Assembly (NCBI GenBank): GCA_040754395.1
Contig: JBFMCL010000002.1
Span: forward strand, 62,001-126,000
DNA: 64,000 nucleotides
Source of the DNA: Nitrospirota bacterium
GTDB lineage: Bacteria; Nitrospirota; Thermodesulfovibrionia; Thermodesulfovibrionales; SM23-35
Reading direction: 5' to 3'
Shown here piece by piece: positions 19,282 through 36,047 of this stretch (its first letter is position 1; every line of letters begins with the position of its first letter). A model generated the notes under the pieces. That model searched no databases and was not told the origin of the DNA. It worked only from the letters and a program-made list of their open reading frames with translations. Made by a program: the position numbers and the translations under genes.

Positions 19282-19821
19282 ATGAATACCAAAACCCTAT
19301 CGGGCTATCTTGCAGTTCTTTGCCTGTCATTTCTCCTCAGGATCATCGGACCATCAGACAGTTTTTCCCACAGCCTGCTGCCCGTCCTGATGATGGCATT
19401 TCCTGTTATCGTCGGCCACCGGGTGAAATTCAGACTCTCGGTAAAAGATTCCGCTGCGGGCCTCCTCGTCTCCGCTGCGATCCTGATTCCCTATTACATG
19501 CTCTTTGGAAGTGATCTGAAGGTGCTGACCGGGCATTCCCTCCTTTTTCAGCTCATCGGGATAGCCCTGCCGGAGGAGTTCTTTTTCCGGGGGTTTCTTC
19601 AGGATTCGCTCGGCAGGAACCTGCAGGCAATTCTTGTCACCAGCCTGCTTTTTTCTGTTGCCCACCTGCCGAAGGCTATGTTCCTCGGTGAATGGACGGC
19701 TCTGCTCAGTTTTTTCCCGTCACTGGTAATGGGATGGCTGTATATGAAAACGGACAATATACTTCCGGGGACTATATTTCATCTGCTGGCAAATATTGTC
19801 TATGGCGCTGCTTCACACTGA
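19282..19821 (+). CDS. CPBP-family glutamic-type intramembrane protease, myxosortase-like candidate
   Basis: A 179-residue multi-pass membrane protein. Catalytic motifs of the CPBP (Rce1-like) family are present: E98-E99 with R103, FSVAH with H128, and H167 with N171. The compact size and single-domain form resemble the small CPBP enzymes (MrtX, MrtS, MrtJ) assigned to processing of MYXO-, Synerg- and JDVT-CTERM tails. It is encoded 377 bp from a subtilase that carries such a tail, and on the opposite strand. The role as that tail's sorting enzyme is an inference; CPBP proteins also include bacteriocin-immunity and CAAX-type members. Confidence 0.85.
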   Translation: MNTKTLSGYLAVLCLSFLLRIIGPSDSFSHSLLPVLMMAFPVIVGHRVKFRLSVKDSAAGLLVSAAILIPYYMLFGSDLKVLTGHSLLFQLIGIALPEEFFFRGFLQDSLGRNLQAILVTSLLFSVAHLPKAMFLGEWTALLSFFPSLVMGWLYMKTDNILPGTIFHLLANIVYGAASH

Positions 19822-20198: not shown

Positions 20199-22490
20199 TT
20201 AATATCTTCTCATCCTCCTTAGTACCCAAACAACCGCAACAGGCACCATTAGGACAGCGGCATCGGCAGCAGACGTCGGACAGTTGGCAGTCCTGCCAAT
20301 TGAACAGCCACCCCCTCCACCACCTCCTCCTCTACCGCCACCGCCTCCATTGCCATTGCCCTGGCCGCCTCCGGGGAGGGTCGCAGAGGCCTCATTTGAA
20401 TACCCTGAAGAGGCAAGTGCATTGAATGCCCTTACCCGGTAGGTATAGGTCTTCCCTGATACAAGCCCGGCATCCGTATACGAAGTCTGATTTTTTGTCA
20501 CAGATGCGATCTCAAGGAACTGGCCGCCTGCCTCTTTCCGTTCAATCCTGAATCCGTCCTCTCCTGTGGCATTATCCGTCCAGTCAAGTGCTACCCCCGT
20601 ATTTGACAGCACCTGTGCATTCAGCGCTGCTGGCGGCAACAGCGAGGTGACGGCGCTGTATGCATTCACCCTGCCCCCGGTCAGAATCCTGTTCAGCAGA
20701 GAAGGTTTCTGATCGACCGTATTGAGAATCGTGCCCTTTATCTGGTCGGCATTGAAATCGCTGTACACGGCAGCAACAAGAGCTGCTATCCCTCCGACAA
20801 TGGGAGTTGACATTGAGGTTCCGCTGAAAAACTGGTAGGCATCATGGTAACTGATACGGAATGCCTCAACGCTCCCGAAAGGCTGTACCGCGTCTATGAA
20901 TCTCTGATTCCTTGCACCGTCTCCGTAGTTCAGCGGGACGCCGGCGGCAATACCACTGAAGACGTTCATGCCGGTGAACACATCGCCGTTTGCATCATCG
21001 GTAATATACAGGGCATGCAGATAATTCTGGTAAAAGCTGCTCGTTCCGATATCATATCCGATATCCTGACCGGTTATGAAAAGCCGGCCTCCATTATCGA
21101 GAAAAGACGAGAGGTGTGTCTGGTCGTTGAGCGTGAGGGTGCTGCTGTACTGATCCCCCGTGAACCAGATGACAAGCCTGTACTGCATTAACTGGCCTGC
21201 TGCGGGACCACTGCTCCCTGCAGGGACTGAATATTTGTCAAACGCATGTCCGAGGGCCTGAAGAGACTGGGCAAAGTAATTCTCATACGACTTCCCCCCG
21301 TCATCATCAACCAGGAGTATCTGATCTCCCGGGACAATGGCATGAAAATCCAGGACCGCCTGCATGACCGCATTTCGTGAAGCCGAGCCGTTGATCCCTT
21401 CAAAGCCGAACGCCAGATATGCAACCCTGTAGAACCCGCTGTATGTTACCCCTGTGGCAAAAGATGGTATGGTGCTCAGGATGTTCTCTCCCGGCGCTGC
21501 CACATCGACAGACGCGCGGCCGTAGTTGGAAAAGAGCGCAAGGTTATCATTCTGGTCCGATGCTGCAACAGAAAGGACATTGGGAAGATTGAACCCGGCA
21601 GGATATCCGGGAGTCACATCCTCATTGTCGCCGATCCCGTCCTCGCCTCCATTCCCTGCGGCCGCAACAAAAAGGATGCCCGGATACAACGCAATTACAT
21701 TATAGAGCGACTGCGAATAGTCAGGGCCACTCAGGCTCATGTTCACAATCCGCGCGTTATTGGATGCGGCAAAGACTATTGCTTCAATAACATCAGCGAT
21801 CGTGCCTTCTCCGTCCTGATCGAGCACTTTCAGCGGCATTATCTTCACCCGCCAGTTCACGCCGGTTACCCCCCGTGCGTTGTTTCCGACTGCGCCAAGA
21901 ATACCCGCCACATGCGTTCCGTGTCCGTTCTGGTCGTCCGGATCCGCATCATTATTGATAAAATCATAGCCTGCTGCCAGATTTCCCGACAGATCCGGGT
22001 GATTTCCGTCCACACCGGTATCGATAACCGCTACCGTAACAGAAGATGCATCCCGCACTACCTCCCAGGCCTCGGGGCCGTCGATATCCGCATCGGAAGT
22101 CCCGAATGTTCCATTGACTGCCTGCCCGGTATTATGCATGCCCCACAGCTCACTGAACCTCGTGTCATCAGGCAGGATCGCCGCCCTGACGATGAAGTTT
22201 GGTTCTGCATATTCAACCGCGGGGTGTGCTCTGTACATTTCAACTGCTTCCTCAACCGGCATGCCTTCCGGTATCATGATTCTCTCAAGCCCTTCCAGTC
22301 CCAGTGTCCTGACTGCTTTTGCTCCCAGTGCATCGTGCACGCCGGATTTCTGCATTTCCCGTACACCTGTCCTGAATTTTACGAGTACCTCTCCCTGCTT
22401 ATATACAGAACGGGCATGTCTGCCGGGGCTGTCACCTCCGCATGCCAGAAAAGCGAGTATAAGCAGCCCAAGAAGCGCCTGTTTCCACAT
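20199..22490 (-). CDS. Subtilisin-like protease A (S8) with prodomain, inserted domain, FN3 and CTERM-type sorting tail
   Basis: A 763-residue exported S8 peptidase. Order: lipoprotein-like signal with Cys17; Fervidolysin-type prodomain ~30-103 (GEVLVKFR ... VEYAEPNF); catalytic Asp157 (VIDTG), His190 (HGTHVAG), oxyanion Asn280 and Ser559 (GTSMSTP). About 205 residues (345-552) are inserted between the Asn and Ser segments and resemble a class I glutamine-amidotransferase-like fold (QILLVDDDGG, GGRLFITGQDIGYD). FN3 follows at ~618-705, then a Gly-rich run, Cys729, a hydrophobic helix and RRMRRY. It starts 10 bp after gspN with GGAGGG ahead of the ATG, so it belongs to the T2SS operon and is a likely cargo. 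Confidence 0.93.
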   Translation of the reverse strand: MWKQALLGLLILAFLACGGDSPGRHARSVYKQGEVLVKFRTGVREMQKSGVHDALGAKAVRTLGLEGLERIMIPEGMPVEEAVEMYRAHPAVEYAEPNFIVRAAILPDDTRFSELWGMHNTGQAVNGTFGTSDADIDGPEAWEVVRDASSVTVAVIDTGVDGNHPDLSGNLAAGYDFINNDADPDDQNGHGTHVAGILGAVGNNARGVTGVNWRVKIMPLKVLDQDGEGTIADVIEAIVFAASNNARIVNMSLSGPDYSQSLYNVIALYPGILFVAAAGNGGEDGIGDNEDVTPGYPAGFNLPNVLSVAASDQNDNLALFSNYGRASVDVAAPGENILSTIPSFATGVTYSGFYRVAYLAFGFEGINGSASRNAVMQAVLDFHAIVPGDQILLVDDDGGKSYENYFAQSLQALGHAFDKYSVPAGSSGPAAGQLMQYRLVIWFTGDQYSSTLTLNDQTHLSSFLDNGGRLFITGQDIGYDIGTSSFYQNYLHALYITDDANGDVFTGMNVFSGIAAGVPLNYGDGARNQRFIDAVQPFGSVEAFRISYHDAYQFFSGTSMSTPIVGGIAALVAAVYSDFNADQIKGTILNTVDQKPSLLNRILTGGRVNAYSAVTSLLPPAALNAQVLSNTGVALDWTDNATGEDGFRIERKEAGGQFLEIASVTKNQTSYTDAGLVSGKTYTYRVRAFNALASSGYSNEASATLPGGGQGNGNGGGGGRGGGGGGGGCSIGRTANCPTSAADAAVLMVPVAVVWVLRRMRRY

Positions 22491-30531: not shown

Positions 30532-32841
30532 TCATCTTGCCTTCTGTATCTTCATGAGATAGTTTGGTTCAGCGTATTCGATTTCTTCGTATTTATTGAA
30601 AACCTTCACCGCGTCCCTCACATCCTGTCCCTTTTTCAGTCGTATGCGATGAGGCCCCCGGGGTGTCAGCACCGAGATAACGGATGCCCCTTCGGCAGCA
30701 AGGATTTCCAATACCCTCCGATCCTCAACAGCATCCCTGAATTTCACCAGGGCTTCTCCCTGAACAAACATTTCTTCCGTCCTTGCGTAGTCAGCTTTTT
30801 TATTGTCCGTAAGCTTTGAAAGCTGTTCCGCTTCTTTGATGATATGCGGGGTAAGAAAAACTATCAGATTTGTCTTTTTCTTTCCGATCGATCTGTTCTT
30901 GAAAAGCCACCCGAGCAGGGGGATGTCTCCGAGCAGCGGCACCTTTGTCACGTTTTCCTCTTCGCGCTCCTCCATCAGTCCTCCGATCACGACCGTCTGA
31001 TTGTCCTTCACAAAAACAGATGTCTTCGTGGAACGCTTTGTGGTGGTCGGTCCAACCGTCAACGTGACATCGGTTGATTCCTGTTTAAGTGCCGAGATCT
31101 CCTGAAATATATCGAGTTTCACATAATCGCCTTCTGCGATCTGCGGGGTCAGGCGCAGGGTGATGCCGACATCCTTTCTCTCTATGGTGCTGAACACTGA
31201 CTGGGGCCTTGACGGGTCTGATTCTTTCTTTGAGATAAAGGGGACATTCTCACCGACGACGATTTCCGCTTCCTTATTGTCGGAAGTAAGAATCTGCGGC
31301 GTCGAAAGCACATTCACAGCTCCCCTGAATTCATTGAGGCTGAAAAGGGCAGCAAATCCGGGGACGCTGAGTGTTGAGGTGACCACTTCACCATCAGGCC
31401 CGATCGTGGAAATAGGGACGTCCAGAAAATTCCCCATACCTCCGGCAGTAAGCCCTGTCAGTCCGAAAAGGATATTCTGCATCGCAGAGGAGTCTATGGT
31501 GCCGAACCCGCCTACCGCAACAGGCTCGCCGTCTTTTTCCGCGATGATCCTCCATTTTGCGCCGAGTTCCTGCAGCCTGTCAATCGACGCCTCAACGATC
31601 ATTGCCTCAACATACACCTGCTTTCTTTTTCTGTCCAGTTGTCTGATGACCTGCACAAGGTTCTGGTAGTCTGCCGGTGAGGCAACAATGACAAGGGAGT
31701 TCGTCGCCTTATCGGGAGAAATCGTGACCCTTCCTCCCGGTTCAAACGGACTTTTTGCCGCCTGACCTGCCTGTACCGGCTGCCCGGCACGGGGCTGGGA
31801 AGAAATACCGGTGATCATCCCCTCGAGCACTTTGGAAAGTTCGGCAGCATCCGCATATTCCAGAAAGTAGACATTGATCTTGCTTGTTGCTTCCGGAAGA
31901 GGAATATCGAGAAGTGCGATCATCCTTTTCATCGATTCCTTTTCCTGTTGATCAGCGATCAGAACAATGGCATTTAATCGCACATCCGCAAAGACACTGG
32001 CCCTCTGTTCCTCAACAGAATATCCTGTCACTGTTTCCCCGGGTCTCGGCGGACGTATCGCAGCAGTGTGGGTCCTGCTGCCCAGAGCAAGTGCCTCATT
32101 GATGATCTTTACGACATCCTCAGCGTTTGCATGTCTGAGCATGATCAGTTCCGGCTCCTCAATGCCGGGCTTGTCTATCGAATCGATGATTTGGAGAATT
32201 TTTTCGATATTCGCATATGAGTCAACAATCAAAAGCATGTTGCTCGGCCCGAAAGATGAAATGTGCCCGTCGCGCGAGATCAGGGGCTGAAGGAAGTTTA
32301 CCGCTTTTGACGCGGATATCGCCCGCAGTTGCAAGAGCCGTGTGATATACGCATCGCTCACCATCCCCCTGCCGTCTTTCAGCAGTTCTGTGCCTGACTG
32401 TTTCGCCTGGGAAACGGGGACAATCTTGTATACCTTTCCTGAAGGAACAACCGTAAACCCTTTCAGTTCGAGGACAGAGGTAAAAAGACTGAAGGCGTCA
32501 TCAACCGAGAGCCTCGAAGGCGCAATGATGGTAATGTTTCCCTTCACCTTTTCGTCGAAAACGAAATTCTTGCCGGTCACATCGCTGATGAACTTGACTA
32601 CGACAGCGATATCCACATCAACAAAATTAAAGGTGACCTTCTTTTCCTTTGTTCTTGCAGCATCAGGGCGAGCCGGTACTTCTTTTGTTTCAGGAGCGGT
32701 ACCGGCCTGTTCCGGGGCATGTCCGGCTGAGGGAGTCCCGGCAAATGAGAGGCAGGGAGAAATGTGCAACAAAGATAACCCTGCAACCAGCAGGCAGATG
32801 AGCCTCCGCAGAAATATTGCAGTTCTTTTACCGGTCTTCAT
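30532..32841 (-). CDS. gspD: Type II secretion secretin GspD with C-terminal protease-prodomain-like extension
   Basis: A 769-residue outer-membrane secretin: signal peptide (~1-35), N0 and N1-N3 ring domains (about 65-395), secretin core ending LIVFLTPHIIKEAEQL (about 655-670). The last 77 residues (693-769) are not part of a normal secretin. They read VQGEALVKFRDAV ... VISVLTPRG ... DAVKVFNKYE, EIEYAEPNYLMKI and align along their length with the prodomains of both subtilases here (QGEVLVKFR ... VEYAEPNF; EGELLVRFK ... VEYAEPNY). The frame is uninterrupted. The tail could dock, chaperone or inhibit the cargo proteases; this role is inferred. Confidence 0.95.
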   Translation of the reverse strand: MKTGKRTAIFLRRLICLLVAGLSLLHISPCLSFAGTPSAGHAPEQAGTAPETKEVPARPDAARTKEKKVTFNFVDVDIAVVVKFISDVTGKNFVFDEKVKGNITIIAPSRLSVDDAFSLFTSVLELKGFTVVPSGKVYKIVPVSQAKQSGTELLKDGRGMVSDAYITRLLQLRAISASKAVNFLQPLISRDGHISSFGPSNMLLIVDSYANIEKILQIIDSIDKPGIEEPELIMLRHANAEDVVKIINEALALGSRTHTAAIRPPRPGETVTGYSVEEQRASVFADVRLNAIVLIADQQEKESMKRMIALLDIPLPEATSKINVYFLEYADAAELSKVLEGMITGISSQPRAGQPVQAGQAAKSPFEPGGRVTISPDKATNSLVIVASPADYQNLVQVIRQLDRKRKQVYVEAMIVEASIDRLQELGAKWRIIAEKDGEPVAVGGFGTIDSSAMQNILFGLTGLTAGGMGNFLDVPISTIGPDGEVVTSTLSVPGFAALFSLNEFRGAVNVLSTPQILTSDNKEAEIVVGENVPFISKKESDPSRPQSVFSTIERKDVGITLRLTPQIAEGDYVKLDIFQEISALKQESTDVTLTVGPTTTKRSTKTSVFVKDNQTVVIGGLMEEREEENVTKVPLLGDIPLLGWLFKNRSIGKKKTNLIVFLTPHIIKEAEQLSKLTDNKKADYARTEEMFVQGEALVKFRDAVEDRRVLEILAAEGASVISVLTPRGPHRIRLKKGQDVRDAVKVFNKYEEIEYAEPNYLMKIQKAR

Positions 32842-33938: not shown

Positions 33939-36047
33939 CTATCTCCTCCGTCTCATGAAGGCGATCAGGACAAGGGGTGAAAGCAACAGTGCCAGGTCTG
34001 CGGCTGCTGTTTGGCTATTCTGCGGTGCTCCTATTGCACATCCCCCGCCACCGCCACCGCTCCGGCGGCTCCCGGTACTCAGCGTTTTGACAGATACTTC
34101 TTCAGAATATGCGGAATTGCCTGCCAGAGCACTGAACGCCCTTACCCTGTACCAGTAGCCTGTGCCTGCGCTCAGTCCCGAGTCGGTAAAAGTGGTGGCA
34201 TTCTGGCCAACCTGGGCGATCTCAATAAATGTTCCGTTGGAAACCCTTCTCTCTATTTTGTACCCTGCTTCCGCACCTGAATCGTCATGCCATGAAAGCC
34301 GTATCTCAGAAGTCGACAGTGCAGAAGCATGAAGGTTTGCCGGAGGACTGAGAGGCGTAATGGCAGATGTTTCGTTGGTGAGATATGATGGAGAATCCCC
34401 GAGATCATTATAGGCCTTAGCCCGGTAAAAATATCTTGTGCCATCGGCAAGTCCGCCATCCGCAAACGAATTTGCGTTTGCGGCAAGGGTGATGATCAGC
34501 GCATAAGAACCGCCTTCGGCTTTCCTCTCTATCCTGTATCCGTGTTCATCAGTCGCCCTCTCAGTCCAGGCCAGAGATATCTGGGAAGGAGACATCGGAG
34601 TTGCAACAAAATCCGTCGGTGCCCAAAGTGAGGACATCGCCTTAAAGGAGTTGATCCTCCCGGCGGTCAGGATCCATCCGTTCAGGGTAGGAAGGACATC
34701 GACATACCGAAGCACCATATTCCGGATGCTCAGATGACTGAGATGGGAATAGTATGCAGAAAGCAATCCCGCAAGACCTGATACGTGGGGGGCAGCCATT
34801 GAGGTTCCGCTCCCGAATTCCTTATCAGAATATCTATTCTGGGGAAGGGTGCTCAGGATATACACCCCGGGGGCAGCCACATCTACAGTAGTCGGGCCGA
34901 AGTTGGTAAAGGGTGTTCTCCTGTCATCCTGATCAGTAGCTGCGACTGAAATGATGTTGGGAAGATTGTACCCGGCGGGATAGACAGGCAGCAGATCGTT
35001 ATTATCACCTATTCCATCATCCCCGCCGTTTCCGGCAGCAGCTACCAGAAGGGTCCCCGCGTTATTGGCAGCGGATATTGCATTGTACAGGGTGTTCGAA
35101 AATCCATACCCTCCAAAGCTCATATTGATAACCTTCGCACGGTTTGTTACCGCATACTGTATGCCGGCGGCGATATCTGCGTCAGACCCGTCTCCTTCGG
35201 CATTCAGGACCTTCACAGGAATCATGTTGACCATCCACATCACACCCGCGATTCCGTTGCTGTTATGTCCCTTTGCACCCGCAATCCCTGCCACATGGGT
35301 ACCGTGGCCATGGTCGTCCATGGGGTCATTGTCAGTCGTTTTTGCAACCGCGCAACTGCCGCTTTCGTTGAACTGAGCGCAGGTAGTAAAATCCCATCCC
35401 TGGCAGTCATCGATATATCCGTTCAGATCATTGTCAATGCCGTCAAGACAGTTGGTCTCCCCAAGGTTTCTCCAGATATTCCAGACAAGGTCGTTGTGGG
35501 TGTAATCGATACCGCTGTCGAGTATCGCAATGATAATTTCCGGGCTTCCTATCGAGATCTCCCAGGCTTCAGTTGCCTTGATGTCTGCACCCGGAGTACC
35601 GTAGGCATACTGACCTGTATTCCATAACGCCCATTGATCCCGGAAAAAGGTATCGTTCGCCACGATAAACAAGGCTTTTCTGATATAGTTCGGCTCGGCA
35701 TATTCAACGTTCGGGTCAGACATGTATGCAGTGATCGCTTCTTTGACAGATATCCCTTTTGCCAGTGCCACATGCTCAAGATTTGGAACAAGAGTATATC
35801 TTCTTATTACAGATGAGCCGACAGTCTGATGTGTCTTCACGGCTGATGAGGTTACCACTCCGGATTTGAATCTGACAAGGAGTTCTCCCTCTCTGTAGTT
35901 GCCTGCATCCATCTGCACCATGATGGACTGTGCACTCATTGTTGCACTGCCGGTTTTTGCTGAGGGCTCTGAAGAGATTTGTGCAGTTTTCTCACTGCCG
36001 CATGCAACAAGAATAAAACACACCAACAAAAAAAGAAATTTCTTCAT
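33939..36047 (-). CDS. Subtilisin-like protease B (S8) with prodomain, two FN3 domains and CTERM-type sorting tail
   Basis: A 702-residue S8 peptidase, paralogue of protease A. Lipoprotein signal with lipobox LVAC (Cys16); prodomain ~51-124 (GELLVRFKSG ... VEYAEPNY); catalytic Asp177 (LDSGID), His248 (HGTHVAG), Asn340, Ser416 (GTSMAAPH). Residues ~197-233 hold a Cys-bounded LDGIDNDLNGYIDD insertion like calcium-binding MopE-type motifs. Two FN3 domains (~475-565 and ~567-655) precede SGGGGGGC (Cys670), a hydrophobic helix and RRRR. It has its own terminator and lies just upstream of the gsp operon, on the same strand. Confidence 0.93.
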   Translation of the reverse strand: MKKFLFLLVCFILVACGSEKTAQISSEPSAKTGSATMSAQSIMVQMDAGNYREGELLVRFKSGVVTSSAVKTHQTVGSSVIRRYTLVPNLEHVALAKGISVKEAITAYMSDPNVEYAEPNYIRKALFIVANDTFFRDQWALWNTGQYAYGTPGADIKATEAWEISIGSPEIIIAILDSGIDYTHNDLVWNIWRNLGETNCLDGIDNDLNGYIDDCQGWDFTTCAQFNESGSCAVAKTTDNDPMDDHGHGTHVAGIAGAKGHNSNGIAGVMWMVNMIPVKVLNAEGDGSDADIAAGIQYAVTNRAKVINMSFGGYGFSNTLYNAISAANNAGTLLVAAAGNGGDDGIGDNNDLLPVYPAGYNLPNIISVAATDQDDRRTPFTNFGPTTVDVAAPGVYILSTLPQNRYSDKEFGSGTSMAAPHVSGLAGLLSAYYSHLSHLSIRNMVLRYVDVLPTLNGWILTAGRINSFKAMSSLWAPTDFVATPMSPSQISLAWTERATDEHGYRIERKAEGGSYALIITLAANANSFADGGLADGTRYFYRAKAYNDLGDSPSYLTNETSAITPLSPPANLHASALSTSEIRLSWHDDSGAEAGYKIERRVSNGTFIEIAQVGQNATTFTDSGLSAGTGYWYRVRAFSALAGNSAYSEEVSVKTLSTGSRRSGGGGGGCAIGAPQNSQTAAADLALLLSPLVLIAFMRRRR

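Follow-up and report, generated by a model that had tools for sequence, protein, structure and literature searches.

In the 64,000-nucleotide stretch of DNA analysed here (the window), which belongs to a Nitrospirota genome of 2.98 Mb that is 99.96% complete, a type II secretion system (T2SS) operon lies between two genes for S8 subtilases, with subtilase b upstream (33939-36047) and subtilase a downstream (20199-22490). A gene for a CPBP-type intramembrane protease adjoins subtilase a. The feature that concerns us most is the C-terminal end of the secretin, GspD, which carries a domain of the kind found as the N-terminal prodomain of subtilases. The features are as follows, in the coordinates of the window:

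19282-19821, plus strand: CPBP/Rce1-type intramembrane protease, related to myxosortases (Mrt core); PF02517, 69.8 bits
20199-22490, minus strand: S8 subtilase a, 763 residues, with its own prodomain, a split S8 domain, fn3 and a C-terminal sort signal; PF00082, PF22148, fn3
20202-20327, minus strand: putative MYXO-CTERM-like sort signal of subtilase a, GGGGGGGCSIG...TM...RRMRRY; read from the sequence
22197-22403, minus strand: prodomain of subtilase a; PF22148, 51.5 bits
22501-33776, minus strand: T2SS operon gspC-D-E-F-G-H-I-J-K-L-M-N, one subtilase on each side; from open reading frames, order kept in relatives
30532-32841, minus strand: gspD, type II secretin of 769 residues with a C-terminal prodomain; TIGR02517, PF00263, PF22148
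30535-30564, minus strand: C-terminal segment NYLMKIQKAR, comprising a P5-P1 equivalent (LMKIQ) and three further residues; from the BPN' prosegment alignment and the distribution of C-termini
30562-30789, minus strand: Fervidolysin_NPro-like domain (PF22148), GspD residues 685-760; 45.5 bits and an AlphaFold2 model
30790-30834, minus strand: helical linker from secretin core to prodomain, in the place of the S-domain; predicted helix (model residues 193-210) and conserved TxxKxxEFA
33939-36047, minus strand: S8 subtilase b, 702 residues, with its own prodomain, S8, two fn3 domains and a C-terminal sort signal; PF00082, PF22148, PF00041
33942-34061, minus strand: putative MYXO-CTERM-like sort signal of subtilase b, SGGGGGGCAIG...TM...RRRR; read from the sequence
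35688-35918, minus strand: prodomain of subtilase b; PF22148, 48.1 bits

GspD is a type II secretin, matched by TIGR02517 over residues 71-678 at 560 bits (cut-off 351) and by PF00263 over residues 506-669. Its residues 685-760 match PF22148 (fervidolysin N-terminal prodomain) with a score of 45.5 bits, well above the gathering cut-off of 21. The chain has no S8 domain, and the prodomain is found C-terminal to a secretin rather than N-terminal to a protease. The initial annotation had located this tail correctly but began it too late, as the domain starts about eight residues earlier, at 30789 and not at 30765.

The homology between the GspD tail and the prodomains of the neighbouring proteases, which that annotation had claimed, is confirmed by sequence comparison. 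PF22148 matches all three, and BLASTP aligned the tail with the prodomains of the two subtilases at 35% over 80 residues (E 3e-15) and 36% over 73 residues (E 2e-12). A hidden Markov model made from GspD tails alone, with the shared EYAEPN motif masked, still scored 36.8 and 33.3 bits on the neighbouring prodomains, against a maximum of 8.4 bits in 1000 shuffles, so the similarity is not limited to the motif. Nor is the fusion an assembly or frameshift artefact, since the tail is in one open frame with the secretin core in all 30 relatives tested. An apparent split of gspD from its tail in one relative (L132) is an assembly gap with N's.

Among 61 relatives and a 296-genome sample of the phylum, GspD matches running through the tail occurred only in Thermodesulfovibrionia, the class of the window's genome; in the 296-genome sample, the matches from other classes end where the core ends. 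By a manual table count, the tail is present in about 63 of the 68 class genomes with a related GspD, including one (G198) in which it is divergent but confirmed. It is absent from G031, G234, G274, G212 and G081. Five tailless T2SSs exist; in the first three of these genomes GspD ends where the tail would begin, and in G274, gspD stops just short of the tail position and gspE follows directly. All 32 aligned tails are matched by PF22148. In the tail of G254 (L082:9519-10052) there is an insertion of about 25 residues between strands.

A FastTree phylogeny of 175 prodomains, which is based on a short alignment and has low internal support, separated 64 of the 72 GspD tails from the S8 prodomains as a single clade (support about 0.86). 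Because the tail clade is separate, the fusion looks old and mostly vertically inherited, and we reject a recent origin of the tail as a copy of either neighbour's prodomain.

An AlphaFold2 model of the tail, built with 32 relatives, had a pLDDT of about 90 or more over residues 11-80 and the order E-H-E-E-H-E. When this model was compared with the PDB by Foldseek, fervidolysin (1r6v) was the first match (probability 1.00, E 9e-3, TMq 0.60), and the furin/PC1 prodomain complex, 1spb and PCSK9 were also among the top matches. Many of the top 20 were prodomains of subtilisins or proprotein convertases; E-values were modest, and ferredoxin-like folds of other proteins occurred among and below them. 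By sequence, the tail profile matched 1r6v with an E-value of 7e-4 and the BPN' prosegment weakly (E 0.065). When core and tail were modelled together, the prodomain was clearly defined and followed a helix of 18 residues; the core was poor, with a pLDDT of 66.7 overall.

No S-domain with a pilotin motif was found in GspD, in which the TIGR02517 match ends at residue 678 and PF22148 begins at 685. The pilotin motif is also absent from pilotin-independent secretins such as ExeD (PMC6532946), and its absence does not decide GspD membership. Structures of T2SS secretins show the rim alone inserted into the outer membrane and the S-domain, at the C-terminus, on the periplasmic side (PMC6532946). 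As the tail takes the place of the S-domain, its expected location is the periplasm, around the outside of the barrel and not at the exit or the channel entrance. The location given in the initial annotation, at the outer face or the exit of the pore, is therefore not upheld. No PulS/OutS or AspS pilotin was found in the host genome, which does encode a GspB-type protein (PF16537); this combination fits pilotin-independent assembly of the ExeAB kind. ExeD itself assembles without a pilotin, and its distal S-domain matters little for assembly or function (PMC6532946).

The tail has several features of prodomains that inhibit subtilases in trans. In the alignment with the BPN' prosegment, YVEEDH falls on YAEPNY, and Glu69 and Asp71 correspond to the E and N of EPN. 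In BPN' these two residues cap two helices of the protease. We take prosegment residues 72-77 to continue in register in the tail, which makes the position six residues after the Asn (N+6) equivalent to Tyr77, or P1. The E, the P and the next Y of the motif are kept in at least 90% of GspD tails at loci sampled without motif bias. The N/D capping position is kept in 64 of 72 tails and P4 is mostly M, I, V or L, both in a set found partly through the EYAEPN pattern, which inflates the conservation. The 69 distinct tails end exactly at N+6 in 29 cases, between N+6 and N+11 in 52, and earlier in 2; thus 67 of them end at or past N+6, where the P1 assignment rests on the BPN' alignment. Similarly, 22 of 24 stand-alone or unclassified short PF22148 proteins end at N+6 or N+7. 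In the tails P2 is bulky (I/M/L) and P1 is Q or K; the neighbouring subtilases' own sites differ.

These features fit the binding of a subtilase in trans. The stand-alone inhibitor SUB1-ProM has capping Glu146 and Asn148, Val151 at P4 and its C-terminus in the cleft (PMC6993865). Truncation of SUB1-ProM left growth unaffected, which shows that inhibitors of this kind may be dispensable. Another residue stands in place of the capping Glu of EPN in the tails of G054 and G022 (L075 and L076; VKPNY and ATPNY), so the constraint can lapse; G054 has no S8 match.

Both subtilases of the window end in a Gly-rich Cys segment, a transmembrane helix and an Arg cluster. For proteins with the MYXO-CTERM signal, which depend on the T2SS in Myxococcus, the proposed route is lipidation, trimming by a CPBP protease and export through the T2SS (PMC11980579). 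The window gave no match at the equivalog level: the NCBIfam CTERM models gave no match to the sort signal of subtilase a at E 0.1, and the CPBP protein scored about 70 bits with NF040589 and NF040914, under the curated Mrt cut-offs (100-250). The CPBP protease, which is related to myxosortases and MrtS, may represent a so far undescribed Mrt subtype acting on the GGGGGGC(S/A)IG ends of the two subtilases. In subtilase a, a large insertion (about residues 344-540) separates the His region of the S8 domain from the Ser motif, and split S8 matches of this kind occur in relatives as well. A fourth, weak PF22148 match in the host genome (L206:9525-13163; G000:C2:178146-178319) lies at the N-terminus of a 1212-residue subtilase-like protein.

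Subtilases co-occur with the tailed secretin: an S8 protein is present in 29 of 35 tailed genomes. They are no commoner there than beside a tailless T2SS (4 of 5 genomes), and only 2 of 14 genomes without such a GspD have one. With the small numbers available, the tail was not associated with S8 beyond the presence of the T2SS (Fisher p = 1). S8 thus goes with the T2SS, with no detectable further association with the tail, and the counts do not support the idea that presence of the tail is driven by presence of S8. No S8 match was found in 6 of the 35 tailed genomes (in one of them, G003, the prodomain is cut by a contig end), and 8 of the 35 have no other PF22148 domain. G031, G234 and G274 combine a tailless T2SS with subtilases. 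This imperfect coupling between tail and subtilases is the chief weakness of a reading in which the tail acts on proteases.

The gene neighbourhoods connect the two in some lineages. Of the 29 tailed genomes having S8, about 10 have a subtilase gene no more than about 15 kb from gspD. Two genomes (G034 and G045) have subtilases between gspF and gspG, and in one family (f1) the T2SS operon is flanked by subtilases. Both neighbours in the window carry a prodomain, as do the subtilases inside the operons of G034 and G045, and we reject for these proteases the possibility that the tail is the sole prodomain of enzymes that lack one.

In the sister class Nitrospira, GspD is tailless and PF22148 occurs also in open frames of 131-210 residues. 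These begin with a signal peptide and a lipobox-like Cys, which makes them putative lipoproteins, and end in EPNYRYETQK or similar. They lie directly upstream of an S8 subtilase gene, often overlapping it, and the partner subtilases have their own prodomain and the C-terminus of Gly-rich Cys, transmembrane segment and Arg. Many such pairs were found (for example L130, L134, L141, L144, L146, L148, L154 and those of G220, G139, G105, G224 and G266). In Nitrospira sp. RSF6 (L139:443-12323), the stand-alone prodomain and subtilase pair is divergent beside the gspE-K operon. Similar pairs occur in one gammaproteobacterial, one Chloroflexi and one deltaproteobacterial MAG. The short PF22148 lipoprotein upstream of the subtilase in the gammaproteobacterial MAG (L133:9980-12527) groups in the tree with the GspD tails, possibly as a result of transfer.

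The tailless G031, of the same order as the genome of the window, encodes a secreted stand-alone prodomain ending in EPDYNVKIQK (L199:5029-12518). Downstream of it lies the gene for an S8 protein, at least 2336 residues long, with a prodomain of its own. An apparent stand-alone prodomain in G274 was rejected, being the front part of a broken subtilase frame. Sort-tagged subtilases are thus repeatedly accompanied by a second prodomain in trans, either in a putative lipoprotein or in the secretin. We found no description of such a scheme for surface subtilases.

The reading we favor, to which we give about an even chance, is that the tail is a trans-acting prodomain, tethered to the secretin, which would bind subtilases and keep them in check on the periplasmic side while they are being exported. 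Each secretin subunit would present one copy of the prodomain on the periplasmic side of the outer membrane. Its beta-sheet would pack on two surface helices of a subtilase, E-x-N would cap those helices, and the free C-terminus of the tail would occupy the S4-S1 cleft and inhibit in the manner of a product. The domain would most probably serve to keep sort-tagged subtilases, which already have a prodomain in cis, inactive or to recapture them while they wait at the T2SS, sparing the channel and the periplasm from digestion. A partial role in cargo docking is possible. The binding, the inhibition, the periplasmic location and the identity of the cargo are what we infer from the comparisons above. 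In a bolder and rather doubtful version, a ring of about 15 tethered prodomains would be both receptor and safety catch for protease cargo, capturing the active-site face, keeping the enzyme off and handing it to the channel. If this were true, the exporter would recognize its cargo through the cargo's own prodomain interface.

The tail could instead be a structural exaptation, in which the prodomain fold stands in for the S-domain in assembling the secretin, directing it to the outer membrane or stabilizing the ring (by lipoprotein binding, for instance), and never touches a protease. We think this unlikely, and it has these points in its favor: the position of the tail after a helix in the place of the S-domain, the absence of a detectable PulS/OutS or AspS pilotin from the genome, the retention of the tail in some genomes without S8, and its vertical inheritance through the class. 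However, the GspB-type protein fits assembly of the ExeAB kind, and G274, G031 and G234 keep a T2SS without a tail on GspD. A purely structural role would also leave unexplained the conserved capping E-x-N, the C-terminus held to P1 and the occurrence of the same domain as a separate gene beside the Nitrospira subtilases. It is less probable still that the tail is a substrate receptor that docks folded subtilases as a recognition step in export without inhibiting them. T2SS cargo recognition is unsolved, the tail sits on the exporter itself, and cargo-like subtilases adjoin the operon or lie inside it; yet the tail is expected outside the barrel rather than in the periplasmic vestibule, it would face competition from the prodomain of the cargo for the same surface, and the T2SSs of Nitrospira, G031, G234 and G274 manage without a tail on GspD.

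Two further explanations appear very improbable. Defense against foreign subtilases in the periplasm, whether from neighbors or from predators, would leave the cell's own cargo untargeted and could account for tails in genomes with no S8 of their own and for the phylogenetic distance of the tails from self prodomains; folded foreign proteases, however, seldom reach the periplasm, and the genes are near self subtilases. That the tail is a neutral passenger, an old fusion with no selected function, we regard as the most remote of these explanations: its clean loss in several lineages speaks for this, but about 63 of the 68 class genomes that have a related GspD retain it, and both the E and P (at least 90%) and the position of the C-terminus are conserved.

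The fusion of a secretin with a prodomain is real and conserved. It is apparently undescribed, as we found no paper describing one in the open-access literature, and the restraint of subtilases by the tail is a plausible mechanism. The fusion bears on how the T2SS recognizes folded cargo and on how cells stop export-bound proteases from digesting the export machinery, and it suggests that protease cargo could be gripped or held back by the very channel that exports it. A GspD with a built-in prodomain throughout a class is a small, defined and testable contact between channel and cargo. Together with the lipoprotein version in Nitrospira, it points to a scheme of a second prodomain in trans for surface subtilases.

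Like the type II secretins GspD, PulD, EpsD and ExeD (TIGR02517), the protein described here has N0, N1-N3 and secretin domains and is encoded in a gspC-N operon, but it differs from them in having a PF22148 prodomain in the S-domain region and no known pilotin in its genome. The subtilases resemble the substrates of the myxosortase/MYXO-CTERM system (PMC11980579) in their Gly-rich Cys, transmembrane helix and Arg cluster and in the adjoining CPBP protease; here, the CPBP protein scores under the Mrt equivalog cut-offs and the sort signal was assigned by eye. The lipase foldase Lif, a membrane-anchored steric chaperone of T2SS cargo, is likewise a propeptide-like helper separate from its cargo in the T2SS pathway, although it has another fold, is anchored in the inner membrane and is no part of the channel. 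With the fervidolysin prodomain and the BPN' prosegment (PF22148/I9 fold; 1r6v, 1spb) the tail shares the profile, the predicted fold, the E-x-N/D cap and a C-terminal segment reaching to P1, but theirs is N-terminal in a protease and the tail is C-terminal in a channel protein with no protease after it. Prodomain folds without a protease are known in POIA1, the yeast proteinase B inhibitor, TgMIC5 and Plasmodium SUB1-ProM (PMC6993865), which share with the tail the capping E/N, a hydrophobic P4 and a free C-terminus at the cleft. Those inhibitors are free proteins, whereas the GspD tail, judged from its sequence, is a putative inhibitor tethered to the secretin.
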